Source: Labia minor | Taxonomy: Eukaryota > Arthropoda > Insecta > Dermaptera > Spongiphoridae | Reading direction: 5' to 3' | NCBI GenBank assembly: GCA_963082975.1 | Contig: OY720344.1 | Coordinates: 68,786,546 to 68,850,545 of the forward strand | DNA: 64,000 nucleotides | Shown: positions 1 through 42,843 of the stretch, piece by piece | Layout: each line of letters starts with the position of its first letter | Numbering within the stretch: the first letter of the stretch is position 1 | Position numbers and translations under genes: made by a program | The notes under the pieces: generated by a model | Seen by the model: only the letters and a program-made list of their open reading frames with translations | Database searches by the model: none | Told to the model about the DNA's origin: nothing

Positions 1-795
1 TTCTAGAATATTTTTGGATGCAGTAAATATACATATATCATCAGCAAATTGTAATATCTTCGTATGAGGATCTATAACTTTGCTAATGTTTGACATAAAC
101 AAATTGAACAGTAATGGGGAAAAAACTGACCCTTGGGCTAAACCTTTATATAATAATCGTGGACCAAATAATTTATTGTTAAATTTTATGTAGATTGTTC
201 TAGAATAATTTAAATTAATAATACAATTAATCATTTGACTAGGGATATTAATAGATTTTAATTTTACACTGAGAGTTTCTAATAGCACATTATCATAAGC
301 CGATTTTATATCTAGGAAGATACTTGTGAGACATTCTTGGCTGGCAAAAGTATTATATATTTCATTGGATAATATTATTAAGTTATCCATAGTGCTTCTT
401 TTAGTCCTGAATCCATACTGTTCCTCACCAAAAATATTATTTGATTCACACCACCATTCTAAACGATTTTTAATTAAAAATTCAAATATTTTAACCATTA
501 TTGACGATAGAGCTATCGGTCTATAAGAACTTGCTAATTGGGGATCTTTTTGTTTGTGGATTGGAATTATCAATTGAGAATTCCAAGATTCAGGAAACAA
601 ATTAAAATGGAAAAACTTATATAAATTCAATAGGTGGATTTTAGCGGATTTCGGTAGATGTTTTATCATTGAGTAACTAACTTGATCGATACCAGGCGCA
701 TTATCCTTTTTAGAATCAATTGCAATTTGGAATTCCTTAAGCGAAAATGGATTGGTCAACCAATTTGAATCTATTCCCACAGGGTCAGAAAAAAA
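1..795 (-). pseudogene. Non-LTR retrotransposon reverse transcriptase (partial, runs off window)
   Basis: The minus strand is open without a start codon from about 790 to the window edge and encodes a reverse transcriptase that would copy the element's RNA at the target site. Motifs appear in the proper order: SSYRPIALSS and YGFRTKRST (fingers), FLDIKSAYD (first catalytic Asp), LAQGSVFSPLLFNLFMSNI (RT block 4), and LQFADDICIF (catalytic FADD). The remainder of the palm and the thumb lie outside the window. A run of T near 795 shifts the frame from the endonuclease half, so the copy is probably dead. The clade looks Jockey/R1/I-like from the block 4 wording and the linked APE-type endonuclease; the exact clade is an inference. 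Confidence 0.9.
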
Positions 796-1106
796 GACAG
801 TTTATTCGGAACAAATGGTGGAGTTATCAGTTGAGAGAAATTTTCTATAGTTTCTTCATCCAAATTAGATTTCTGATTAGGAAAGGCCACATTCTTTAAA
901 ATTTTTATTTTATTCCAAATCGTTTCTATTTGAGTGTCTTTACTAAGTGAAGAGCAAAATTTTTTCCAATGCGTCCTTTTTTTTCTTTTAAAATTCTTTT
1001 AGTTTTTGCATCAAACATTTTGTACGACATAAAGTTTTCAAAATTAATTTCTTTAGTATATTTTTTAAATTAGGCTTTCCTTTCTTTAATTAAGCTGGTA
1101 GCCTCT

Positions 1107-1795
1107 TTATCCCACCAGGGGGGGGCTCTTAAAAATTGATCTTTTATTAATCTTAGATTTTGTGTTACAAGCCAAATTAGCTGTCCATTTAATTGAATTT
1201 ACAAAATTTTCATATGCTTTAATGGGATATTCACTATCCGTATGAACATGTATATCAGGGGTGGTTATAGTAAGATCAATTGGGTAGGAGTTACGATCTA
1301 GTCTTGGAACTGTGGTCTTTTTCCCATTGTTTAGAATAACTAAACCTTCATCATTTATATGATGATTTAACATTTCGCCTACACGGTCCTGGAAGTCCGA
1401 GCCCCAAGAAGCGAAGTGCGCATTGAAATCTCTTCCGATAATAATAGGATCATTTATTTGATTTAACATATTCTTCCAATTATTGTATTCAATAACTGTT
1501 GCAGGAGGAACATAAATGGATAGGAGATAAATTTTGAGTGTGTTGGATATAGATACCTGTATTCCATATAATTCAAAGTTCAGAGAATTTTTATTTAGTT
1601 TTGAACAAGCCATTTCGAAAAATATGGGCACAGAACTAAAAGTGCTACTCCGAGAGGGCCATCTTTCTGATTCAACATGCATGCCTTATCTCTTTTCCAC
1701 TTCCTTGACTTTCCCCCTCCTGTCCGGTTCGGAGTCTTGCTGTGTTTTCCGGTCTTTTTGGTCACTCGCTTACCTGCCTTTGAACTGAGCAAGTC
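1107..1795 (-). pseudogene. Non-LTR retrotransposon APE-type endonuclease (frameshifted 5' part of ORF2)
   Basis: This encodes the endonuclease that nicks the target for the reverse transcriptase just downstream on the same strand. In the 191-residue minus-strand ORF (1107-1682) the motif DFNAH lies at residues 85-89, followed by WGS and later by PIDLTITTPD, the usual endonuclease order. IYLLSIYVPP precedes it. The more N-terminal part (GPLGVALLV, a remnant of the GGVALL motif) sits in another frame at 1595-1792, so a frameshift near 1600 breaks the gene. The usual GDFN reads GRDFN, which suggests a small insertion. The 796-1106 interval is the degraded linker between endonuclease and RT. Confidence 0.85.
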
Positions 1796-2819
1796 ATTCT
1801 ACCTCTTCTGAGCAGCGTTGAGCCTGCTTTTTCCTTCGATTTCATTTTGGTGGATTGATCATCGGCAAAGAGTGTTTGTTTGAAGAGTTTGTTTGAGAAA
1901 AGTGTTTTAGATCCTTTTGCTCGAAGATATCACCATCTGAATCCCTTCTACCTCTTCCTTTCTATATTTTATTCCTTTCCTTTCTTCCTTCCCCGCAAGA
2001 GCTTTCTTTGATCGAATACGACCATCAGGCAAGAACTTCAAGCTTTATTTGAAGAATCTTGTAGCTACGAGCGAACACGGGTCTACGAGAGAAGCAGCGT
2101 CTTAGTTCTGTGCATTGGACGCATGGTATCATTGAAATTCCGGCCCTATTTACCTGGTTGTATCAATTTAATACTGTATATGTGTATATATTATTTGAGA
2201 ATCTTACGTTAAAGTATTATTCATTTTGGCGCATCTAACAATGGACTGGTTTGATCGATTCCATACGGTTTCGGTGTATATAGTTTGTTTTTTTATCAAT
2301 ATATGAATAAGTTTAAATAAAAGCTCAGAAAAGAATACATTTGAGTGTGTTTTCCTTATACCAACTATCACGAACCATTGCCTTTTCGCTTAGAATCAAA
2401 AACCCTATCTCTCTTCAGGCTATTTTCGAGAGAAAATAGCTTGTAATAATAAGAATCTCTCTCTGAGACATTCGAAGTTGAAGCTGGGATTATTACGTTA
2501 ATGTACTAAACAAGTTTATTAATTATTGTAAAATAATACCCCCGAGGTCACCTATAATCTGAGATATAAAGATTATAAAATATGAAATACACACACAATA
2601 CATCAATACAATATGATGCCAAAGAGAACATTTGTGTAATTAGTTTTAAACATGTACACTAAACACACATACACTCATCCCAAACATTTCACAAATACAC
2701 TCTTCACATTCTCACACATCTTAGATAAAAGTCAAAATTTTCTTTTAACGAGATTCAATATATCATATCTTTTTAATCTTTTGTTTGTATCATCCCTAAA
2801 AAGTAATTTTTTCACTAAA
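1796..2819. other. No gene seen; possible LINE 5' leader then AT-rich DNA
   Basis: From 1800 to about 2500 the sequence is less AT-rich than what follows and could be the 5' leader of the adjacent minus-strand LINE or an old LTR; no open frame supports a protein. A TTGGCGCATCTAAC string at 2226-2240 resembles a primer-binding-site context, but no LTR pair was found. After 2500 it is plain AT-rich DNA. Confidence 0.4.
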
Positions 2820-3132
2820 TCATTTTGATGGTTTTCCATTTTTTAATATATTTTGCACTCTTAAGATGTTTATTTCTTCTTATAAGTTTTTATTTCTAAA
2901 TCCCTTTGTAACATATGACTTTATTTGGAATATACTATAGGACTCTTAAAGATTTTTAAGTATTTTATTTTGAAAGCTTTGGAATTTTTTTAAGTTTGTT
3001 TTTGATGCAGAGATCCCCATAATTGTATTCCATACATCAGTTTTGGTTTAATTATAGATTTGTATAAAAGATCTTTGTTTTCTATTTCTAGGCCAGAAGG
3101 TCTTCCTGAAAGCCAATATAATTTTCTATATT
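2820..3132 (-). pseudogene. Jockey-like LINE, C-terminal region of RT ORF (degenerate)
   Basis: The minus strand reads, with frameshifts and stops, the conserved thumb region of Jockey-type elements: a YWLSGRPS-like segment, then LLYKSIIKPKLMYGIQLWGS, then QNKILK. The typical family wording is YKSIIKPIWTYGIQLWG. No other part of the element is attached, so this is a short decayed fragment. It may derive from the same family as the RT at the left edge, but the two do not overlap. Confidence 0.75.
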
Positions 3133-4100
3133 CTTCCCTTGAGTGAGTAAATTAATTAAATAATTTATCTATAATACCTCATTAGTTATATATTTGATAA
3201 CTAGAAGCATTGTTACATATATAAACCATAAAAACAAAAATTAAAAACACAAAAAGCTGGCCATTTAAACAAAGACTCACTCACTCAATATAAATTTTTT
3301 TTATCAATTTTTTCTTTGAAATCCTTCTCCGGAACATATTTCCCTACTCCATTTCAAATAAAATAAAATAAATAAATAAACAACATAACTAATAAACAAA
3401 TAAACAAAAATACACATTTTAAAATATGAATAAAAATTTGATCCTTTTTTTCTATTAAATATAATCATATTTATCATAAAACCTAATTATATTAAGAAAA
3501 ATAAATTAAATTTACCCTTCCCATTTTTTAAACATATAATATCAAATCTTCCTAGTTCATATAATAAAATTAAATCTCAATTCACACACACACATGATAA
3601 TTTGTTCTTTTTTGATGACGTTAGTGGGAAAAACTGCCGAAAGGACTATTCTTTGAATATTATTGATAAAATTTTTTGATGATAGCATCAGATGGTTATT
3701 CTAAAGCTACCCCTTTTTTCTATTAAAAAATGAAATAAAAATAATTATTTTAACAGGATTGTTTCTCATTGTTTAAAATATCTGCACATCATTACCAATC
3801 ACCAAAAAGAGCTATATCAAGAATCCGATAATTTTTAATATTTTTTAGCTGACAAGGCCATCTATTTTCAATTCTTTATATTTTTAGTTCATTATGTTGT
3901 CTGGTGTTGATGGTTAAAATTACGTATTGTAACGGGCGAGACTTTTTTATTTGTAAATAATAATTATTATGTTTAAACCTGGTGAATCCATCCATTGGTT
4001 TTGGCTCCCGGGAGGTGCTGCCCAGACGGAGCAAACCCAAACCATAAGGGATTCCCCAAAAAAATATGTAAACCGGCCCTTTGCCCACTATGAAAAGCAG
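3133..4100. other. AT-rich stretch, no gene seen
   Basis: This interval is mainly A/T with short A-runs and a TAAA-type simple repeat near 3358-3400. The last 100 bases are more GC-rich, but the small overlapping ORFs there show no recognisable domain. Confidence 0.5.
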
Positions 4101-4109
4101 TCCGTAGGG

Positions 4110-4200
4110 ACACGATATCGAAAGCTAAGTATCGATTCTTAGTGGTTAGGTATCGAAAGGCTAAGTATCGATTCTTCGATAGTATCGGACTCAAAAGTAT
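4110..4200. repeat. Short tandem duplication, period about 38 bp
   Basis: Two imperfect copies of a unit containing CTAAGTATCGATTCTT (about 4114-4139 and 4152-4178), with further TATCGAT words around them. They lie at the C-terminal end of the adjacent transposase remnant. Confidence 0.6.
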
Positions 4201-4690
4201 CGATACTCCAAGCCCACATAGCCCCACAGAAAGTAGTCTAGCGATGTTAAATCACAAGATCTTGGAGGCCAATTCACAAGTCCAAAACGTGAAATTAGGC
4301 GCTCACCAAACGTGTCTTTCTATAAATCGATTGTGGCACGAGCTGTGTGACATGTAGCGCCGTCTTGTTGGAACCACAGCTCCTGGACATCATGGTTGTT
4401 CAATTCATGGCTCTATACCGATCACCATTGACTATTCGTGTCTTCCTCAATGCTACGCTCTACAGTAGTAATAGCTTCTTCTGTAAGCACCGTATGGCGT
4501 CTCTGGGGATGCGAGTTATCAATAAGAGCAATTGCGAAAACGTTCCATGGTTAATCGAATTAACTGCTCTGATGGGCGATTTTTTCGACGATAAAATGGA
4601 CATAGTGCACGATACGTATTCCGCACAGAACCATTATTTTCGAAATAAAATTGCACTATTTGCAAGCGTTGTTCAGACGTGAGTATTCAT
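4200..4690 (-). pseudogene. DUF4817-type Tc1/mariner transposase, internally deleted
   Basis: A cut-and-paste DNA transposase relic. The minus strand from 4683 reads EQRLQIVQFYFENNGSV, the N-terminal DUF4817 helix-turn-helix region of this arthropod transposase group. After a frameshift it reads RRHTVLTEEAI. A large internal deletion follows, and the frame resumes with NGDRYRAMN, then WFQQDGATCHTAR (second catalytic Asp) and NWPPRSCDLTSLDYFLWG (third catalytic Asp). The segment holding the first catalytic Asp is missing, and a stop replaces a residue after ATIDL. The family is normally about 330-350 residues; roughly 120 are gone. No terminal repeats were identified. Confidence 0.85.
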
Positions 4691-4699
4691 GATGAATTT

Positions 4700-5000
4700 C
4701 CAAAAACTGAGAATAAATCACTTGACAGCTGTTAAATCGGTCGTCAACTTGAACAGTAATGCCAACTTAAAGTTCTATACCTCGCCGTAATCCGCTTGTT
4801 TTTATCAATTATTATTGGAATTTTTATTAAAGAATTGGGGATGGATTTTTCCGGGCATTTTAGTTTTTTTGGTACTCTCCTGAAGTTTCTTCGTTAAAAT
4901 CTTGTTCCTCAATCTCTAAATTGTTAACTCTATTGATAGGTAAAGTTTTTTTTTATTATTCCAGCAAAGTTGAACTGGATGAAATCTATAAAAGCCTAAA
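4700..5000. other. Spacer, no gene seen
   Basis: About 300 bases between the transposase relic and the gag remnant with no supported feature. Confidence 0.5.
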
Positions 5001-5003
5001 GAT

Positions 5004-6043
5004 TCACATATTTCTTTTCTTTTTATCCAATGTTTTACTTTTATTTTGATTATAATATGTATTTCTCTTGGTAGTTTCAAGGGAAGTTTTTCTCTCAAAG
5101 TTCTTACTTATACTGTAGGATTCTTCAATTTTTTTTATTTCCTTCATTAAGTCTTCAAATGTATTTACTCTTTCTCTGTCTATTTGATTTTGTACTTCCA
5201 CAGGAAGAGAGGTTACTATTTGATAAGTCCGAATTATTTCTGGTATTAATTGATCAATTCTTAATAATAAATTTTCTTTTTTTATAATGAATTCAATCAG
5301 TGATCCATTCATATATTTATAATTAAAGGCCTGTCGAATTGGAGTCCAAGTTTTATTTTCAAAAACCAATATAAATGATACTTTCCATTGTTTCCAATCA
5401 TTTAAAGATAGTTTTTTAAGATTGGAATTATACCATCCTAGGACACGCCCCTCTATAAATAACTTAAGGCATTCCCTTTACCACTATCTTTTTCAACATT
5501 ATGTCTATCACACTCTTTCTCAAAAGACTCTATCCAAGGCAAGGCATCATATTTCTGTCTGTTAAATTTATCAATTAAAAATTTTTTTCCTACTTACTGT
5601 AAATCCACTTTGTTGGTTTTGTATAATTGTTTTTCCAATTCTCGAATTCTTTCTGACAGACTTTCTTCTTTAGATACATCATTTTTTATCTTATTTTCAC
5701 TACTTTCCAATTCTTCTAACATATGCTCTCCAATGCAAAAGTTTCCATCCTCATCCAAAAAAATTTCCTTTAGTTCTTGCTTAAATGACACAGATATTTT
5801 TCTATATCCATTAATTTTTGTAATTGAAGACATGCTGTTTGTTATACTTTTTATTTTGAGCAGTGTAGGATATTTATTTATTCCTTTGATATCATTTAGT
5901 AATACATACCATGTTATTTTGTCCCAAGATAAAGCTTCCAGTTCAAATACATTCTCTTCTTTCTTTATAATATGAAGGTATAATTTTTCTAATGGATTCA
6001 TTTTATTTTGGGATAGAAATTCCTGTGTGATTGAAGGTGTCAT
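5004..6043 (-). pseudogene. LTR-retrotransposon Gag (frameshifted)
   Basis: The minus strand carries a gag-type gene in two main pieces. The first ORF (6043 to 5594, 149 residues) has a helical, lysine/glutamate-rich C-terminus (SLSERIRELEKQLYK) that looks coiled-coil. The region 5594-5369 reads YDALPWIESFEKEC and FIEGRVLGWYN in shifted frames, and the second ORF (5369-5004) reads WTPIRQAFNYKY and SLPVEVQNQIDRE. WYN followed by LPxxVQxQI is the pattern of the retrotransposon Gag capsid domain of Ty3/gypsy-like elements. No zinc knuckle, protease or pol was found downstream. It is on the same strand as the viral-like ORF 340 bp upstream. Confidence 0.75.
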
Positions 6044-6384
6044 GGGTCCAAGATTTATAATGATATTAGATTTAATCTAATAATTATGAAACACTTAAAA
6101 TTATCAATTAAAAACATAAAAGATTAAAATATAATTCAAAAAGATCAGATTGTTAACAAACATATAGTAAAACTACCACCACCAAAGATTTCTTCCATGT
6201 TAGTAAAAATCTTATAACTATATTAATCAATAACCTCCACCCAAAATTAAGTCTAACAAAAGTAGAATAAACTAAATCTATAAAAATATGAAAAAGCAAA
6301 TAAGTAATCTATACCTAAATATAAGTTTAACTTAAAACCTAAAAAACTAAAAGAGAGGACCCACGAAACCAAAGCGAGTACATT
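6044..6384. other. AT-rich spacer between Gag and viral-like ORF
   Basis: About 340 A/T-rich bases. Read on the minus strand, it follows the stop codon of the viral nucleoprotein-like ORF and precedes the Gag start. No AATAAA signal or obvious viral gene-end signal was seen. Confidence 0.5.
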
Positions 6385-7680
6385 CTATTGGATAATTTGA
6401 GAGTTCTGTGATTGTATCATCGGATTTGGGAAAGCAACATTTGCGGATCCAGATTCGTTAATAGTATCCTTTTCCCTCCAAGATATAATAAAACTTCTTG
6501 CGATCTCCTCGCTCTCCATCTGGGTAGAATGAGCGGAGGACGAGTGTAGCATACCTACTGGAGCAAGAGCATTTCTTGATGCAAGGTATCTAAGGATACA
6601 ATCTTCTAATATCTTGTAAGTCGCGTCACTTTGGGCACCCATATAATTAGTCATAGAAAAATTCTCATAGCGAGCCAAAATGGTTGCTGCCATAGACAAA
6701 ATTCGAAAGTTTCCACGGTTGAGATACGCAGTCTCAGTTTTGTTATAAAGGAGTTTTATGTATCCGTGCTCATTTGCATCCTTCGAACATATAAAATTTA
6801 TCGCTTTGTTATATGCTCTCATTTCATCCCTGATGATCCGGATTTTAAAGATCTCTTTGTACTTACCCATAATATAGTTTTCAATATTATGCAGATGCGT
6901 CATCTCTACGCCATCGAGTAAGTGTACAATAGTTTGAAAGAAACTCCCGACCAATCCCGGAGCATTGCAAGCACTTAAGAACATCTCGAAGATGCTACGC
7001 GGGAGATGAAAATTCGCAGAGAAGACTGCGTACAGTGTGCTCATTGTCGTTTGGGTAGCGAACGACCTTTCTGTCCATATAGACCTTTGAGATACACCTG
7101 CTGTTCCGGCGAATGTTCTCAATCTATTGTTAATCCATCCGGAATAGCCTTGGGCTTGACGATTTTTCCCTATCATCAAGAAATATACTCCCAACCCCAC
7201 AAGCTGCTGCTCCCTCATCGAAAAGAAAGAATCCTCCTCTTCCTTACTGGCCATAGTGGCACAGAATTTACGAGAATGATCGGAATGGAATAGTTGAGCA
7301 GTTTCTTCATGGGTTAAGTCTTGGAAGATGATGTTATATTGTGTTTCGGCAAGGGCTGCAGAAAATTTACTCATAGACCCGGAGATATTCAATGTGTTCA
7401 CCAACATGGTAAAGAATGATGTTAAAGACATATCTATATTGGATCCTGAGTCTAGAGCCATCCCGTATGCATAAGATAATATTATACCAATCCTCTTTGA
7501 TCTTACATTTCCTTCATACACTCCATGAGCTCTGAACACTACAAGATCTCTTCTTCCAGTTTGCACGACTTCCACACTACCTTGAGTACTAGAAGGTCTT
7601 AATTTTGAGAGATAACTCTCGGCAAGAGCTCCAGAATTTGATGAAATGGGTAAACCCTCTATCAATTTAAAATTAGACAT
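6385..7680 (-). CDS. Nucleoprotein-like ORF of mononegavirus type (endogenous viral element, intact)
   Basis: A single uninterrupted ORF of 431 codons, by far the longest in the window and visibly richer in G+C than its flanks. The protein appears soluble, with no signal peptide or membrane segment. The central region holds GWINNRLRTFAGTAG followed by YAVFSANFHLPRSIFEMFL, and an earlier ILSYAYGMAL. From memory these resemble the conserved core of nucleoproteins of arthropod non-segmented negative-strand RNA viruses (nyami-, arto-, lispi- or chu-like groups). Such a protein would coat viral RNA; in a genome it is a non-retroviral endogenous element. The start has A at -3 (GCAAAAATGTC), a good eukaryotic context. 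No introns, other viral genes or poly-A tail were seen. The viral family assignment is uncertain; an unknown host gene is the alternative. Confidence 0.6.
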   Translation of the reverse strand: MSNFKLIEGLPISSNSGALAESYLSKLRPSSTQGSVEVVQTGRRDLVVFRAHGVYEGNVRSKRIGIILSYAYGMALDSGSNIDMSLTSFFTMLVNTLNISGSMSKFSAALAETQYNIIFQDLTHEETAQLFHSDHSRKFCATMASKEEEDSFFSMREQQLVGLGVYFLMIGKNRQAQGYSGWINNRLRTFAGTAGVSQRSIWTERSFATQTTMSTLYAVFSANFHLPRSIFEMFLSACNAPGLVGSFFQTIVHLLDGVEMTHLHNIENYIMGKYKEIFKIRIIRDEMRAYNKAINFICSKDANEHGYIKLLYNKTETAYLNRGNFRILSMAATILARYENFSMTNYMGAQSDATYKILEDCILRYLASRNALAPVGMLHSSSAHSTQMESEEIARSFIISWREKDTINESGSANVAFPNPMIQSQNSQIIQ

Positions 7681-8069
7681 TTTTGCCTTCTGGAACTAGA
7701 GCATTGTTTTCTTCTTTGAAAACCTATCCTCAGCATTACAAATTGAATTTCTGTTCTTTTATCAGGTTTATTTTAATATTCACAATTTTACCAAATATGA
7801 GATAAATCTTGTTTATGTTTATTATACTCGTCACTGCCCATATTAAAGTAGTAACTAACAGTAAATACACTAAATACACTAACTCCATTAGATGGCGCCA
7901 AATACAATTTTACATATATATATATTTATGTGATTAATATTCAATGAAAAAAAATGTTCGGGCGTCATATATTTATGTGACCTTAAATTGTACTCACGGT
8001 ACTATACAAAAAAAATAAGAGAGAAATTTTAATAAAAAAAAATTAAATTTTATTTAGTTATTAATATTA
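7681..8069. other. AT-rich upstream flank of viral-like ORF
   Basis: No gene seen. It includes a short AAATACACT direct duplication near 7864-7880, a TGGCGCCA palindrome at 7892-7899 and a short TA run. On the minus strand this would be the upstream region of the nucleoprotein-like ORF; no clear TATA or initiator was assigned. Confidence 0.5.
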
Positions 8070-9338
8070 GGTTGTCAAATATCTCCCTTCCGCCTTTTTG
8101 TCTTATGAATTTAGCGGTTATGTATAAAGCGCTACAGAGCTCGTATCTGGTAATACTATACATCATTTGAAAGGTCTTGACATAATCTACAAAACGACGC
8201 TATGCATGATTAGTTTAAATATTGCGTTTAACAGTTATAGACGTGTAAACATGGAGTTCACTAACGCCGAAATGCGCTCTATTTTAAAGTTTTCCTTCGT
8301 TAAAGGAAAATCCGCTAGAGAAACGTTCCGTGAGATTAATGGTGTTTTGGGGGATGGTACTCTATAACTTCGAACCGCGGAGGAATGGTTTCGACGATTC
8401 AGAGCCGGTGAAAACGACTCCATGGATAAGCCACCCGGCGGAAGACCCGTGACGACGAATACCGATCAAATCATGGAAAACATCCAGTTAAACCGGCATG
8501 TGGCATCTCGTGACATCACCCAGGAGATGGGAGTTATTTTAAAACATCTGCAGAAGGCTGGATACAAAAAAAGGCTTGATGTTTGGGTGCCGCATGATTT
8601 GAAGCAAAAAAACCTTCTGGATCCAATCAACGCCTGCGAAATGCTGCTGAAACGAAACGAACTTGACCCATTTTTGAAGCGGATGGTGCCTGGCGACGAA
8701 AAATGGATCACATACGATTATATCAAGCGAAAACGGTCATGGTCGAAGGCCTGTGAATCGCTCCAAACAGTGGCCAAGCCGGGCTTGACGGCCAGGAAGG
8801 TTTTGCTGTGTGTTTGGTGGGATTGGAAGGGAATCATCCACTTTGAGCTGCTCCCATATGGCCAGACCCTTAATTCTACCATCTACTGCGAACAACTGGA
8901 CCGCTTGAAGCAGGAGATCGACCAGAAGCATCCAGAATTGGCCAAAAGGAAGGGTGTAGTGTTCCACCAGGACAACGCAAGACTACACACTTCGTTGATG
9001 ACTCGTCAAAAGCTACGGGAGCTCAGATGGGAGGATTTATCACATCCACCATATAGCCTGGACATAGTGCCAAGTAATTACCACCTGTTCCTGTCCATGG
9101 CGAACGCCCTTGATGGTGTAAAGTTAGACTCAAAAAAGGCTTGTGAAAAGTGGCTGTCCGAGTTCTTCGCAAATAAGGAAGGGGGTATCTACGAGGGGGG
9201 TATTATGAAGTTGCCGTCTAGATGGAAACAGATTGTCGAACAAAATGGCGCATATTTGAACTAAATCCGATCATCGTAACATTTTTTATAAAGCATTGAA
9301 TAAAGAGCAAAAAAGCGGAAGGGAGATATTTGACAACC
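8070..9338 (+). mobile_element. Mariner element, complete with terminal inverted repeats and TA duplication
   Basis: A 1269-bp mariner. The left end (8070-8100) begins GGTTGTCAAATATCTCCCTT and the right end (9308-9338) is its reverse complement; the 31-bp repeats differ at one base. TA flanks both sides (8068-8069 and 9339-9340), the hallmark mariner target duplication. Size and layout are standard for the family, so the insertion is structurally whole even though its transposase is broken. Confidence 0.95.
8251..9264 (+). pseudogene. Mariner transposase with premature stop and mutated catalytic site
   Basis: The transposase starts at 8251 (MEFTNAEMRSIL) and stops at 9264. A TAA at 8365-8367 interrupts it, but the same frame continues through EEWFRRFRAGE, so this is a single nonsense codon. 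A few residues are missing near ITQEMGVILKHL, where the second helix-turn-helix normally lies. First catalytic Asp: GDEKWITYD. Second: FHQDNARLH. The third position, 35 residues later as in DD34D enzymes, reads PSNYHLF instead of PSDYHLF, an Asp-to-Asn change that should abolish catalysis. The normal length of about 345 residues agrees with the 338 codons here. It lies entirely inside the 8070-9338 element. Confidence 0.92.
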
Positions 9339-9340
9339 TA

Positions 9341-9721
9341 TTATAAACACTATACATAAAATTTATTTTACGGTACATATATATTTTCGTACAATATAAG
9401 ATACATAAATCTCCTAAGCCTAAACTTAGGTTGCTGGATAGAAACTCATCGGGGGGATCTACTGATTTTTATTAGTTACTCTAGTACGAAATCACTTAAT
9501 AATAATAATGGAATTAATGTTAAATGGCGGTACGATACAGTAGTGCTGTCTTCTCCACTTTCTTCTTCAATCAGAAGATTTTCTTCTGCGGTAAGTTAGG
9601 TATGTGTATATTTTCTAGGTCGGCAATATTCTGATTTTCAGCTAGAAACTATTAAATAACTTAGATTCCAGCAGGAGGAGAGCGTTCGAGGACAAGCAGT
9701 CGTCGACAACCATACCGACTA
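9341..9721. other. No gene assigned; moderately GC-rich patch
   Basis: Contains a GGTAAGT string at 9589-9595 that would make a good plus-strand splice donor, preceded by a serine/phenylalanine-rich open frame. No acceptor or homology supports an exon. Confidence 0.35.
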
Positions 9722-9922
9722 ATGAGTCACTCATTACATATTTATTTTTTATTATATTTTAATCAGCTTTAAGACTTTCCTCTCTTGGTCGGTTTGACAG
9801 TCGAGGGAGGTCGCTGTGTAATTCTATGCATATAAAACACAATACCACACATAATGTATACACATATAATACATACAATGTAGAAGTATATCAAAAAAAA
9901 AAAAAAAAATTAAGAGTGAGTG

Positions 9923-10501
9923 TCAGTAATTAAACTGAGAGACCAGAAAATATCGATAATTCCAGGCGCTCTTACAATATTTAATTAATTCACTGATATT
10001 ATTATTATCATTTACATATGACTTAATGTCCTCTAAGCTTAAGAGTTCATTCTTTAAATACAACAATCTAAAATTTCTGAAGATTGGGCATTTGCCAATG
10101 AAATGGAATATATCTTCCTCCACATTTAAATTACAGAGAGAGCACAGTTTTATATCGTTTTTATGTGAGTATTTGTTTAAGTAAAGGTGTTCTCCCCTAA
10201 TTTTAATTACCCATGCAATACTCTGAGAATCAAAATTGGTATTGACTATTTTAAAACTGATGTCTAGATCTTTGTATAAGTTAGGCGTCCTACCATTCTG
10301 CGCCACAGACATGCAGTCACTAAATAATTTATTTTTAATGACATCCAAGGCCTGTGTGACAGGAATTCTTCTCTCCAACAAATCCTCTAGTGACACAGAA
10401 TATAAGTCAGCAATCACTCCCCAGTCGTTATACCAGAATAATTTTCTCTTAATTATTTCCTTAACAAGAATGGCCGGATATCTGTTGTCAGGGAGGTCCA
10501 T
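9923..10501 (-). pseudogene. LINE ORF2 C-terminal region with Cys-His motif
   Basis: This continues the RT of the same LINE in a different frame. It carries a zinc-binding-like cluster C120-x2-C123-x9-H133-x4-C138 (CSLCNLNVEEDIFHFIGKC), the usual C-terminal Cys-His motif of R1/I/Jockey-type elements. It ends at a stop just before an A-run at 9894-9909. The same spacing recurs in the LINE fragment at 38.2 kb. Confidence 0.85.
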
Positions 10502-10518
10502 GCATCTATATATATATT

Positions 10519-11130
10519 TTAAATGAAGTTTAATAGCATATAAAAAAGTTGGGTGTTCTGTAGGTGAACCAAAAATTCTGGTGTAAATTTTGGAAGATTA
10601 AAATTTTTTTTAAAGAAATATTTAAAGGGCAACTCCACCTTCCCATGCATCTTAGAACCCCACACTTGGGCTCCATAACAGAGAATTGCTCTTGATACAG
10701 CAAGGGAGATGTGCAACTTTGAAGAAAAGGGTATATTTTTATTATTTAATACATTATTATAGGAGTTTAAAGCAAATTTTGCTTTAGTAACCCTCTCCTC
10801 CAAGTGTTCCTCCATTGATAGCCTGGATGTAAGAGTTATCCCCAGATATTTATAGCTATTAACTACTTGGATGTTCTCCCCTCTATATTTCCACACTTCG
10901 TGCTTGGCAGGTCTTCTTCCATTCCTAAAAACTACTATTTTGGATTTATTTAAATTTATTATTAAATTCCATTTTTTACAGTAATCATCCAGTTGGTTTA
11001 CCATTTTTTGCATATCAATTTTATTTGTGGCAAGGAGTAGGAAATCATCTGCGTACGCGAGGAGTTTGATCACCGTTTTTTCAATTTGGATTCCACCATC
11101 TAAGTAATTTTCATATCATTTAAAAATAGA
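10519..11130 (-). pseudogene. LINE reverse transcriptase, palm to thumb
   Basis: The minus-strand ORF opens with LLAYADDFLLLAT, the YADD catalytic box, followed by NLNKSKIVVF and YKYLGITLT, the classic post-catalytic RT blocks, and then SRAILCYGAQVWG, the thumb motif of R1/Jockey/CR1-like LINEs. A frameshift near 10510 separates it from the C-terminal part. Upstream sequence (SPILFSLFL) continues in frame to the truncation point at 11147. Confidence 0.9.
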
Positions 11131-11160
11131 GAGAACAAAATCGGGCTATGAGTCACTCAT

Positions 11161-11640
11161 AGAGTTTGATATTTTTCAAATTTATCTATTTATTATAATA
11201 AAATCCAGGGTCTCTTCCTTGCAACCATTTCAATAGTTTTCATATTTATTTATAATTATTTTTATTTAGTTATTTATAATTTTTTTTTTGATAACTTATA
11301 TTTATAATTAAAGTTTTATTCATTTCTCATTATTTATCCATTGTATTCCAGAAGATTTTCAATCTTCTCTCCGAGCTTCTTATTTACTTGTATCTGTGGT
11401 TAAACTACTTTATTTTTTCTGATTTAGCAATACTTCGAGTCTTTAGAATCCGAATGATCAGTTACTGATTCAAGATTCTGAAAATGTTATGCGCGCGCAA
11501 GTTTATATAGAACCGTGAACAGTTGTTAATTTATTAATTTTATTAGAAAATAGCTTGATCTTGGTTGGTCTCAAACTTTCTCTTGAAATTCTTTTTTCTC
11601 CTTAAAATGTCTTCTCAATAACATAATATTATTCCCAGAT
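11161..11640. other. AT-rich, no gene seen
   Basis: Flank of the LINE insertion. Contains nothing I can assign. Confidence 0.5.
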
Positions 11641-12180
11641 ATTAATAGTTATTCACTGTTTCTATTTTTTGTTTCCATAGCCCCAATACGACTAATTTGA
11701 ATTTTTCTACTTTGTCTTTTCTTTTAATTCCAAGAATACTTCTTGTCATAGCCCTTTGAGTTGACTCCAGTCTGTTTTTTAATTTTTCAGTTATTGATCA
11801 TATTTGAGCTCCATTTCTTTAGAACGTTAATTTTAGATTGTATGTTTATTTCTTTATTTTTTATTATAAACTTGAGTAACCAATATTTTTTTCCATCCAA
11901 GGCTTATTCTTCTGCTAATTTCTTTTATTGTCCTATCCTCGAAACTAATAGTTCCCAGATAAATGCTTTCTGTTTTGGGCATTATAGGTGGTTGATTTTT
12001 TATTCTCTTCACAATTATCATTAGTTAGTAAAATGGATTTGTTCGAATTTATTTGAAAACCGACTCTTTTACTTTTTTCATTTAGTTCTATTATCATTTG
12101 AGTGATTTCTTCTTTTTTATTTGCTATAATAATTATGTCATCAGTAAGCAGAAGGTGCGGCCTTAACTTGGGGAATTTCA
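11640..12180 (-). pseudogene. RTE-like LINE reverse transcriptase fragment, heavily shifted
   Basis: Reading the minus strand across frameshifts gives, in order, LLTDDIIIIAN (decayed catalytic box), SKRVGFQINSNKS, a YLGTISFEDRT-like block, GWKKYW, GAQIWSITEKLKNRLE, and TQRAMTRSILGIKRKD. This order and wording match the C-terminal RT and thumb of RTE-clade elements (family wording: ADDIVLIA, TWSLT, AMERRMLGI). Many indels are present, so it is an old copy. A related RTE thumb is embedded in the Helitron-like copies of this window. Confidence 0.8.
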
Positions 12181-12439
12181 GGACACATATTTAAACTAGT
12201 AAAGTCCATATATCCGGGCCGTTTTAGGGATGGGTATTCTTCTTTTCCGAAGTGATACCCCGAATCAGCGGGGTTCGAGGTGTCGAACCCCCCTCGTTCA
12301 ATTCATCCATTTGGCGATTTGTCAATGGAAATATACATTAATTTAATTAATTATATAATTTAAAATAATTAAATGATAGTTAAAAAAAGAGAATATATAA
12401 AAATATTAATTAATTATTTTTAATTAATATTTGTTAGAA

Positions 12440-13098
12440 TAAAATAAGTTGACCTGTGGCCAGGTCCGAACCGACCGACGGTTTGAAATAAATTAATTTC
12501 CAGCTACAGAAACAATTTCAAATAATTTTAATATATCTATTAATCTAATAAAAAACAGATATGGATATAACATAAATATTTTTAATTTAATTTTATTTTT
12601 AATATATAGCTGAAGTAGCCGGCGTTGACCGTGATCATAATAAGGAGACTGTGACGTCATGAAGGGCTGGGTGACGTCACATAATTTTAAATTAAGAAAA
12701 ACATAATGAAGATGATTTTTCCCGAGGATAAAACGAATACATTCGTTGTGATATGTAAAAAAATCTCCTCATGTGAAATTTGGTGTGAAAATAACCCTTC
12801 CCTTCCTATCGTCGATCGCTAATACTACCACTTCCGGTTTCCGGATTTGCACCAAAAGTTGATCAATTCATCCCACTGATGCATTAAGTAAATATACCAA
12901 ATTTCATCAAAATCGGTTGAGCCGTTCAGGCTGTACACATTCATACGGACAGACGGACGGACGGACGGACAGACAGACATCATGCTAAAAATACTTTTTT
13001 CTGTTAAGAAAATGCATGATTCGTGGAGATATGTAAAAATCTCCACATGTGAAATTTGGTGTGAAAACAATACCTCCCTTACTATCGTCGGTCGGTAA
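12440..13098 (+). repeat. Interspersed repeat with GGAC/CCGT tetranucleotide core, copy 1
   Basis: It begins at GTTGACCTGTGGCCAGGTCC and ends at CGTCGGTCGGTAAAAATT. An inverted pair CCGACCGACG/CGTCGGTCGG lies near the two ends. The middle has two TGACGTCA(C/T) sites (12650-12680), an AAATCGGTTGAGCCGTTC motif (12910-12930) and an ACGG/ACAG tetranucleotide run (12950-12978). An inverted copy lies at 23797-24857 and fragments lie at 44578 and 47232. The small ORF through the tetranucleotide run is not a gene. Confidence 0.85.
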
Positions 13099-14593
13099 AA
13101 ATTATAGAAAGAATAAATATTAATGTTAGAAATATGAATAGAAAATTATCTGGTTAGAGTGCAGCACAGGTCTTTCCAGTTGAACTACCAGAACATGAAT
13201 GTCTTATCTTACATATTTTTACTTTTGTAGATGTTTTCTAATTCTTTTTAATGTTCATTGTTCCTTCATTCTCAAAAGCACATGTTTTCTATTTATTTTA
13301 ATTAATAAAAAAAATCTGTTATAATTGTTCCACTACTAAATATCTATCGTTGAATATAACATTTTTAATTAACTTAATTAAAATATTAATTTTCTATTTG
13401 AATTAAATTTGTTTAATTCTAATTAAATGAAATGCAAATAAACTCATATAAAATAAATGAATCGCATATTTCAATGGATTTATATTAATTAAACAGATTT
13501 GTATTAAATTAATCAAAATGTTTCTTTAATAATTTAACATTAAAAAAAAAATACTTTTCAAAATGACTTTCATAAAATTTAAATTTTTAATTATTTTAAT
13601 ACTTTTTAATTCTTTTTTTTTGTTGTCTGTTTTTAATGAATAATGCATAATTGACTTTTGTTTGGCAGATGATAAAAATTGACTTGGCTGTCCAGTAAAC
13701 TATCAAAGTTGAAAATTTTTTTAACCGATTTTCCTTTCACCAAATTCAAAGGGACATTGTTTTATATTTGACAGACACTATATAAGATTTCCGGACAGTC
13801 CAGGGAAAAAGTGTCATAGGAAAGGACAACAAGATAGGCGGAAAATAAAAATAGAAATGGAATATGAAATCAGATTTAGTTATTTGATCAGACACAACAG
13901 GAAATTGAAATCAAGTTTTTGAAACGAATTTTTATCTATAGAAAAAAAAATTATTAATTTTATTTTAAAATCCCAATCTACATAAGTTACGCGTATTAAG
14001 AATATATGAACTTAAAAAATATAAATTATAAGAATATTATTCTTTTAAAAAATTTTTCCTTACTGAATATCAAACTTATTTATATAATTATACAAATGTT
14101 ACTGTTTTATATGATGCAACTAACCTGATTTTTTTATTTATAAAAATTAAATAGCTTAATAAATTTCAAGCCTTATTTGTATTTATATATTTTGAAATTT
14201 CAGTTAACAAACGATTATCTTTTAATAATATTTTGTTAGTTTGTGATTTGAAATTAATTCATGGTATTAAGTAATTAATTAAGGGAGAGCTATATGGAAA
14301 AAAGAAAATAACACCCTAATCAATTTAGTCTTTAGATCAAATTATTATTTTTGAAATCCATTGTTCTTTGTCTACTATAGAATTTATTCAGGAAGATGTA
14401 AAAACAAGAATGATTGAAAATTTAACAAACTAAATTGATTAAATATTTTATTCTATGTTTAACATGACATGAAAAATTACAGTTGAACAATTAATTTTAA
14501 TTTTTCATAATAACCACTTTTTCGCAGCAAATATAATTCAAATTATTATTCAATGGTATCAATCTAAAATCAATAAATTGATAAATACATTAC
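13099..14593. other. AT-rich; 3' flank of receptor exon, no further exon recognised
   Basis: Very A/T-rich. If the receptor gene continues on the minus strand, this is intron; I searched it for the Cys-Cys loop C and membrane-helix exons and saw none. Confidence 0.5.
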
Positions 14594-23796: not shown

Positions 23797-24857
23797 ACCG
23801 ACCGACGATAGTAAGGGAGGTATTGTTTTCACACCAAATTTCACATGTGGAGATTTTTACATATCTCCACGAATCATGCATTTTCTTAACAGAAAAAAGT
23901 ATTTTTAGCATGATGTCTGTCCGTCCGTCCGTCCGTCCGTATAGATGTGTAGAGCCTGAACGGCTCAACCGATTTGGATGAAATTTGGTATATTTACTTA
24001 ATGCATCAGTGGGATGAATTGATCAACTTTTGGTGCAAATCCGGAAACCGGAAGTGATCCGTCCGTCCGTCCGTCCGTCCGTATAGATGTGTACAGCCTG
24101 AACGGCTCAACCGATTTTGATGAAATTTGGTATATTTACTTAATGCATCAGTGGGATGAATTGATCAACTTTTGGTGCAAATTCGGAAACCGGAAGTGGT
24201 AGTATTAGCGATCGACGATAGGAAGGAAAGGGTTATTTTCACACCAAATTTCACATAAGGAGATTTTTTTACATATCACCACGAAACATGCATTTTCTTA
24301 ACAGAAAAAAGTATTTTTAGCATGATGTCTGTCCGTGCGTCCGTCCGTCCTTCCGTCTGTCCGTATAAATGTGTACAGCCTGAACGGCTCAACCGATTTT
24401 GATGAAATTTGGTATCTTTACTTAATGCATCAGTGGGATGAATGGATCAACTTTTGGTACAAATCCGGAAACCGGAAGTGGTAGTATTAGCGATCGACGA
24501 TAAGAAGGGAAGGGTTATTTTCGCACCAAATTTCACATAAGGAGATTTTTTTACATATCACCACGAATGTATTGGTTTTATCCTCGGGAAAAATCATCTT
24601 CATTATGTTTTTCTTAATTTAAAATTATATGACGTCACCCAGCCCTTCATGACGTCACAGCCTCGGGTAACGCCGGCTACTTCAGCTATATATTATAAAT
24701 AAAATAAAATTAAAAATATTTATGTTTTATCCATATCTGTTTTTTATTACATTAATAGATATATTAAAATTATTTGAAATTGTTTCTGTAGCTGGAAATT
24801 AATTTACTTCAAACCGTCGGTCGGTTCGGACCTGGCCACAGGTCAACTTATTTCTAT
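23797..24857 (-). repeat. Interspersed CCGT-core repeat, copy 2 (inverted, internally triplicated)
   Basis: Reverse complement of the 12440-13098 repeat, with matching ends (ACCGACCGACG at 23798; GGCCACAGGTCAACTTATTT at 24833). Its core is expanded: the segment TCCGTCCG...GAACGGCTCAACCGATTT...CCGGAAACCGGAAGTG occurs three times (about 23915-24055, 24057-24200, 24330-24480). The TGACGTCA sites (24630-24658) are conserved. Confidence 0.85.
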
Positions 24858-42004: not shown

Positions 42005-42843
42005 TGTGTGCAATGCCAGAGAGCAAAGGTAACCCGTCACACAGTTACTCCGCCAGGGCAGTTCCCAGTAGTTCAGGCTAGATTCCTGCACATTCATGTC
42101 GATATAGTGGGCAGGATACCGTTACCTGATGACCGCCGTGAACCGCTACACCAGTTGGCCGGAGGCTTACCCTTTGGAAAACATCACGGCAGAATCGGTC
42201 GCTAAAACCCTCTTGAACGTTTGGGTAGCAAGATTCGGCTTTCCGGAAACGATCACCACAGATCAGGACCGGCAATTTGAGTCAGCCCTGTTTCGAGAAC
42301 TGGGTCGCTTCTGTGGGTTTCAACGGATTCTGGGATTACAGGGACCCTTCCACCCAATTTACAACGTGCTCGTGGAACGCTTCCATCGAACGTTGAAGGC
42401 GGCGATTATGTGTCACGCAGACAAATGGACTGACTCGCTTCTACTGGTCCTTCTAGGGGTTAGAGCGGCGTATAAAGAAGACCTACAGGCCTCGAGCGCA
42501 GAGTTGGTTTACGGCGAGCCGCTGCGGGTCCCGGGGGAGTTCTTCACATCAGAAGCATCGGAGCCTCCGATGCATCAGGAACTGATCCAGAGGTTGCGGG
42601 CCCAGGTAAGATCACTGCATCGTCATTGCTCTGGTACTGCTTTCGTGCATAAGGCCCTGCAAGACACAACCCACGTATTCCTCAGACAGGATGCCCTTCG
42701 CGGGGCATTAGATCCCCCTACACAGGGCCCTATCAGATGGTATCCCGGGATAAGAAAACGGTCAACATCGTCGTAAGGAGCAAGTCGATGAAAGTTTTGG
42801 CGGATAGAGTGAAGCCAGCATTTGCTTGTTCCGATGATAGTTA
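42005..42843 (+). pseudogene. Ty3/gypsy integrase (fragment with two frameshifts)
   Basis: The DDE enzyme that inserts LTR-retrotransposon DNA. It opens with VQCQRAKVTRH (end of the HHCC zinc domain) and then ARFLHIHVDIVG, with the first catalytic Asp. A frameshift near 42120 leads into RYTSWPEAYPLENITAESVA, TTDQDRQFESALF (second Asp) and NVLVERFHRTLK (catalytic Glu). D to E is 38 residues here because two extra residues sit before PFHP. SAELVYGEPLRVPGEF follows. A second shift near 42725 leads to YQMVSRDKKTVNIVV and DRVKPAF, the usual gypsy C-terminus, ending at a stop at 42841-42843. No LTRs or RT were found. Confidence 0.92.

Follow-up and report, generated by a model that had tools for sequence, protein, structure and literature searches.

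An intact lispivirid-like nucleoprotein gene in the genome of Labia minor, probably a young endogenous viral element, with related lineages and a satellite-like array

The window analyzed here, a stretch of 64,000 nucleotides from a 126-Mb contig of Labia minor (Dermaptera), carries at positions 6385..7680, on the minus strand, an intact open reading frame (ORF) of 431 codons that probably represents a young endogenous copy of the nucleoprotein (N) gene of a lispivirid-like mononegavirus. In the same reading, which we hold with good though not full confidence, this copy is one of five or more N lineages that entered the genome as separate captures, one of which expanded into a satellite-like array on another contig. 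A first-pass annotation made from the letters of the window had pointed to the ORF; the genome-wide family and the array were invisible to it, because only the window was seen.

The ORF and its assignment to the mononegaviruses

The reading frame starts with an ATG at 7680 and runs uninterrupted to a TAG stop codon at 6387-6385. Its stop-free stretch of 436 codons, the longest of the window, compares with a maximum of 192 codons in 100 first-order Markov sequences of whole-window composition, which rules out a chance ORF. The G+C content of the ORF is 40.3%, against 29.8% for the window and 25% and 24% for the immediate flanks, and along the profile it drops back to host values at about 7740 and 6330. 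The start codon lies in the context ggcaaaaATG, with an A at –3. The first-pass annotation had described an intact 431-codon frame with a good start context, a differing base composition and two core peptides, RLRTFAGTAG and a second one; these observations were borne out, both peptides being present in the translation, and the strand, which it had not given, can now be added. Its statement that every other long coding stretch was broken held for the stretches examined, the next longest being a mariner transposase frame with one internal stop.

Searches with sequence profiles gave little. No Pfam family matched at E≤10, either for the ORF or for any of the three members of its group, for which there may be no model, and a mononegavirus nucleoprotein need not match one; PDB sequence searches returned nothing useful (one row, a Duffy receptor at E 0.72), and neither did scans of IMG/VR and of a phage collection. 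In the protein database two relatives of similar length, P0001 and P0002, were 46-47% identical to the query and covered 95-96% of it (E 2e-115 and 7e-113), the contigs that encode them being no longer than 2.4 and 3.2 kb; no more appeared among 6097 candidates, nor among the best 7995 and 7996 in two further searches.

The viral assignment came from structure-based comparison. The AlphaFold model of the window protein, built on a three-row alignment, was poor (pLDDT 44), as was the model led by P0001 (pLDDT 41), and both rest on the same three sequences. When the window model was searched with Foldseek against the predicted viral structures of BFVD, the N protein of Jimsystermes virus ranked first (E 1.4e-8, with 26% identity across 438 columns), and the other three matches at E≤0.001 were a protein of the Hangzhou acrida cinerea lispivirus 1, the N of the Hymenopteran arli-related virus OKIAV100 and one from Lampyris noctiluca rhabdo-like virus 1, all four being near full length with 16-26% identity. 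The search led by P0001 recovered the same four viruses together with Hubei rhabdo-like virus 3 at 16-29% identity, again with Jimsystermes virus N first (E 1.1e-10, 29%). Three of the four matches of the window model and three of the five of the P0001-led model belong to the lispivirids by their name or a published placement; the Lampyris noctiluca virus and Hubei rhabdo-like virus 3 are presumably of lispivirid kinship as well. Paramyxovirus and filovirus N proteins rank next, at E 0.005 or worse, so that for both lead sequences the similarity to lispivirid N exceeds that to other N families.

Two points weigh against this assignment. The models are of low confidence, so the Foldseek matches are mainly sequence-driven, and among solved structures the top five rows were mononegavirus N proteins at only E 0.036-0.27, which is suggestive at most. 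Moreover, VIA-align was uninformative on the fold, and the TM-scores were 0.17-0.27; therefore, the homology is taken as supported by sequence and not as proof of a fold. The resemblance to arthropod mononegavirus nucleoproteins proposed by the first-pass annotation thus finds support within these limits. The ORF appears to be a mononegavirus N gene, and its narrowing to a lispivirid-like one is moderately supported by these comparisons.

The N proteins of Jimsystermes virus, OKIAV100 and the Hangzhou acrida cinerea lispivirus 1, with 431, 431 and 438 amino acids against the 431 of the window protein, are alike in length and similar over nearly their full extent, and Lispiviridae N proteins were the best ranked for both lead sequences. 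The window protein differs in being only 16-26% identical to them and in lying in a chromosome, where no P, M or G gene was seen. Jimsystermes virus was described from termite RNA libraries and falls within the Lispiviridae (PMC7650761), and a lispivirid example has a negative-sense genome with the gene order N-P-M-G-X-L (PMC12642352). The insertion found in the window derives from N only. Its parent would have been an unsampled or extinct lispivirid-like mononegavirus, whose N gene was the source.

N copies across the genome

The assembly comprises 604 Mb in 71 contigs, and the window occupies positions 68,786,546-68,850,545 of the contig here called C1. The genome inventory is a lower bound, since the best candidates were scored (97 of 657 and 99 of 570). 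The listed N matches fall on C1 and C4 only, at C1:68.77-68.79, C4:49.53-49.82, C4:58.53-58.54 and C4:62.24-62.25 Mb, and they form at least five lineages: the window copy, its C1 neighbour (C1b), the copy at C4:58 Mb (C4_58), a large array (array A) together with the copies at C4:62 Mb (C4_62), and a lineage at the array edge (lineage B). Among the listed matches, the window copy alone is both full-length and free of stops. C1b lies about 21 kb from it on the same strand, with two frame changes and one stop, and in the stretches compared the flanks of the two copies did not align except for one AT-rich match of 39 nt.

A viral gene in a 126-Mb contig, with a mariner transposon and retroelement pieces nearby, is what is expected of a non-retroviral endogenous viral element (EVE). 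Long tandem arrays can be assembled wrongly, and one might suspect such an error, or contaminating sequence from an exogenous virus; this is extremely unlikely, given that the ORF stands beside mobile-element pieces in so large a contig and that the other copies carry stops and frameshifts on two large contigs.

Divergence among the lineages and probable separate captures

Between lineages the proteins are 71-89% identical (89% over 327 codons for window and array), and synonymous sites are saturated, dS being beyond estimation. At fourfold sites the identities are close to those expected from shuffling: 26 of 102 sites against a shuffle mean of 27.8 for window and array, 32 of 120 against 30.1 for window and C1b, 27 of 105 against 27.4 for window and C4_58, and 26 of 104 against 27.7 for window and lineage B. 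Identity at twofold sites fell below the shuffle mean in three comparisons (56/138 against 68.8 for window and array, 52/131 against 65.4 for window and C4_62, 61/145 against 73.3 for C1b and C4_58), which is unexplained and was kept out of the argument. In the protein tree the window copy stands beside the array lineage with a support of 92.

Base composition bears on the same question. The G+C content at third codon positions (GC3) is 0.40 in the window copy, 0.45 in C1b, 0.44 in C4_58, 0.56 in the array and 0.40 in lineage B, all above 0.30, and window and array differ (Fisher p 5e-6). At fourfold sites the values are 0.34, 0.47, 0.43, 0.38 and 0.33 in the same order. These figures also tell against separate captures: the fourfold composition of window and lineage B is near that of the host bulk, the lineages hardly differ in it, and the high GC3 of the array arises at sites other than fourfold ones. 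The composition argument is therefore only partial.

Saturated synonymous sites combined with proteins 71-89% identical favour separate captures of related viruses, that is, lineages that would have diverged as viruses and then inserted separately. Related viruses would have infected the host line repeatedly, and their N genes would have been captured one by one, some close together. A single old capture, duplicated and conserved as an ancient host gene family, with most copies broken recently, would account for the co-located copies and the saturated synonymous sites, and agrees with the near-background fourfold composition of window and lineage B; nevertheless, it requires several lineages to have lost function recently and independently, the GC3 differs between lineages, and the viral polymerase pieces beside the array, described below, point to viral DNA. 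We consider such a family very unlikely.

Age of the window copy and the question of selection

The age of the window copy was approached by counting tip-specific changes over the 247 positions common to seven sequences, at positions where the other six are invariant. The window copy showed 2 changes in 91, C1b 4 in 93, C4_58 1 in 90, the array 3 in 92 and lineage B 7 in 96, whereas the database relatives P0001 and P0002 showed 12 in 101 and 14 in 103. If all changes were neutral, the divergence of the window copy since it entered the host is about 1% at most, with a Poisson upper bound of about 3% (missense fraction 0.72). At 1% neutral divergence the frame would survive open with a probability of 0.61 counting substitutions and of 0.18 with an assumed indel rate added; at 3% the values are 0.22 and 0.005. 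With five lineages to consider, selection is not required for one copy to have stayed whole. Two observations temper the argument from youth: the count of 2 in 91 fits selection as well, and it is a coarse bound and no clock, because the broken C4_58 copy has fewer changes than the window copy.

The insertion would accordingly be young and the ORF still whole for that reason, selection not being required. In stating that an intact N is either very young or kept by selection, the first-pass annotation had left two options, of which youth fits the 2 changes at 91 invariant positions and selection found no positive evidence. A domesticated N, that is, a host gene under purifying selection that might, for example, interfere with the nucleocapsids of incoming relatives as an analogue of the endogenous bornavirus-like nucleoproteins (EBLNs), would account for the whole reading frame, for the scarcity of changes at invariant sites and for the low proportion of nonsynonymous differences (pN 0.06-0.13), beside saturated synonymous sites, between the window copy and the lineages of array A, C1b and C4_58; besides, intact or expressed non-retroviral EVEs have been reported in insects (PMC10636211, PMC11978097). 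The low ratio of nonsynonymous to synonymous change (dN/dS) is, however, common to copies that are now broken and can date from the virus. In recent duplicates within the sister lineages dN/dS is 0.42-0.93 in nine comparable pairs, all below 1 and with few changes (a tenth pair, of two lineage B copies, has no silent difference), the variation of the array is in neutral proportions, and the flanks of the window copy and C1b do not align beyond the short AT-rich stretch. Domestication is thus an unlikely explanation.

Arrays on C4 and viral polymerase pieces

One of the N lineages forms array A. Its mapped part, C4:49,532,481-49,725,000 (192.5 kb), holds 184 N-derived segments, head to tail on one strand, which make up 87.5% of the bases. 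The main unit consists of N nucleotides 280-1283 and a 176-bp spacer, found in 135 of 184 gaps, which starts just before the N stop and continues as sequence resembling a 3′ untranslated region (UTR). The steps from unit to unit are 1169 or 1152 bp in 95 of 184 cases and 890 or 1004 bp in 67. The array extends over some 280 kb, having been mapped to 49,725,000, with further copies listed beyond and N sequence reappearing up to about 49,810,966; the total of roughly 265 segments is an extrapolation and not a count.

Although the N frame is broken within the unit, 127 of 136 copies keep an open end of 218 codons. These 136 copies represent 24 haplotypes, whose identity over 585 nt is 96.9-99.8%, and the open frame is not universal, as seven copies have a stop within the 582 nt compared. 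The 37 variant codons in fixed register comprised 7 silent, 27 missense and 3 stop changes, where neutrality predicts 8.7, 26.9 and 1.4, so selection on the array copies was rejected: their variation is as expected from near-neutral drift with homogenization and no selection at the protein level. As a long, head-to-tail, homogenized array, array A is well supported, in this assembly, as satellite DNA that originated from a gene of an RNA virus. The C4 capture would have reached this size by expansion, probably through unequal exchange.

Lineage B forms a second array with a tandem unit of 4,167 bp, found once to the left of array A (C4:49,528,182) and, in the stretch read, three times to its right (C4:49,811,218, 49,815,385 and 49,819,552), all in one orientation. 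A 701-bp probe from this unit gave 63 matches, four of them full-length at 49.53-49.82 Mb and the others partial or diverged on several contigs; since the probe also matches these contigs, the unit includes dispersed host repeat sequence. The unit contains a piece of the viral polymerase (L), matching PF00946 at E 1.6e-5 with 23.3 bits, which is below the cut-off of 27. Further mononegavirus L pieces, of which several contain stops, are located at C4:49,823,865-49,825,553, about 13 kb past array A and adjoining array B, and at C2:55,828,658-55,830,947 (8 matches).

This arrangement raises the question of an RNA-level antiviral memory, in which N insertions would lie in loci producing PIWI-interacting RNAs (piRNAs) and the C4 array would multiply those directed against N. 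Such a role is compatible with a young endogenous N captured several times, and we regard it as a tentative possibility. Two pairs of lineages are close, window and C1b at about 21 kb and arrays A and B adjacent; five lineages placed in 604 Mb would have any two of them within 22 kb of each other with a probability of about 7e-4. Moreover, the 184 mapped segments share one orientation, the lineage B copies read likewise, viral L pieces lie in or beside array B, and a satellite-type piRNA locus is on record from mosquitoes (PMC7919454). On the other hand, unequal crossing-over could have produced the array as inert DNA, the C4:62 Mb copies occur in both orientations, and the proximity of lineages could reflect local duplication instead of trapping. 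The host might even carry true trap loci, with repeated N captures of which two were amplified into adjacent arrays and the satellite serving as a heritable source of antiviral small RNAs; this extended form is doubtful.

Sequences around the ORF

On both sides of the ORF possible viral remnants can be discerned. Positions 7681..7740 (minus strand) may retain part of the viral 5′ leader that preceded N, judging from the G+C content, which is at host level by about 7740, with an uncertain outer limit. Downstream, 6201..6384 (minus strand) is possibly viral 3′ UTR or gene-junction sequence, with a weak similarity to the 176-bp array spacer (31 nt at 80.6%, E 0.014). This similarity beyond the stop hints that the template may have been longer than the trimmed N coding region, although other window stretches match the AT-rich spacer equally well or better. 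The 341 bp downstream of the ORF matched only themselves in a search that skips common words.

Directly downstream, on the same strand, broken gag-like retroelement pieces were assigned at 5004..6043 from reading the sequence, with no retroviral Pfam match. An N gene captured by a retroelement with long terminal repeats around it was considered and rejected, because no pair of long direct repeats flanks the ORF (20 of 24 repeat families, positions 1-14000). The N gene would have been reverse-transcribed, probably by a host retroelement, and then inserted into the germ line.

Upstream, the element adjoins a mariner transposon at 8067..9340 (plus strand) with terminal inverted repeats, its ends placed by eye, which is not part of the EVE and marks host DNA. 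Since its transposase frame is broken by a single stop only, the neighbourhood is not uniformly old, and the mariner is perhaps fairly young too. Endonuclease and reverse-transcriptase fragments were also recognized in the window by Pfam. An integrase-core piece at 42129-42776, below the Pfam cut-off, lies in an unusually G+C-rich kilobase (51%) and is presumably a retroelement, and a tandem repeat at 23919-24567 has periods of 142 and 282 bp, 95-97% alike, with TCCG runs. Rfam and tRNA scans gave nothing useful.

Relation to known systems and biological meaning

Like other insect mononegavirus-like EVEs, the sequences described here are virus-derived pieces in host DNA. Endogenous Mono-Chu sequences are described as commonplace in termites, some of them like Hubei rhabdo-like virus 3, by Lay et al. 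2020 (PMC7650761); the ORFs of those EVEs are presented there as disjointed, whereas Labia minor has one whole copy and another lineage as a tandem array of about 280 kb. The afrotherian EBLNs are likewise N-derived coding sequences in an animal genome, with negative selection reported over more than 83 million years (PMC4982594), in contrast with the window N, which is without sign of selection after integration. The mosquito satellite-type piRNA locus resembles the C4 array in being a satellite arranged in tandem within the genome of an insect; the text consulted (PMC7919454) does not present it as derived from a virus, as the C4 array is. Intact N-derived EVEs are of a known kind, but the present copy leads to a genome with what seem to be several captures of related N genes, one of them turned satellite. 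No report of a non-retroviral RNA-virus gene as an array of such size was found in the open-access literature, which is not proof of absence.

The reports of intact or expressed insect EVEs cited above make co-option possible in principle. The first-pass annotation had named a piRNA source as one possible use of an intact N, and the clustered copies and the array may make this idea worth testing. If these findings are confirmed, RNA viruses would join the sources of satellite DNA, a single capture having given rise to some hundreds of near-identical units, and Labia minor would provide a case in nature for asking whether the number of EVE copies determines the piRNA dose and the resistance to a matching virus.
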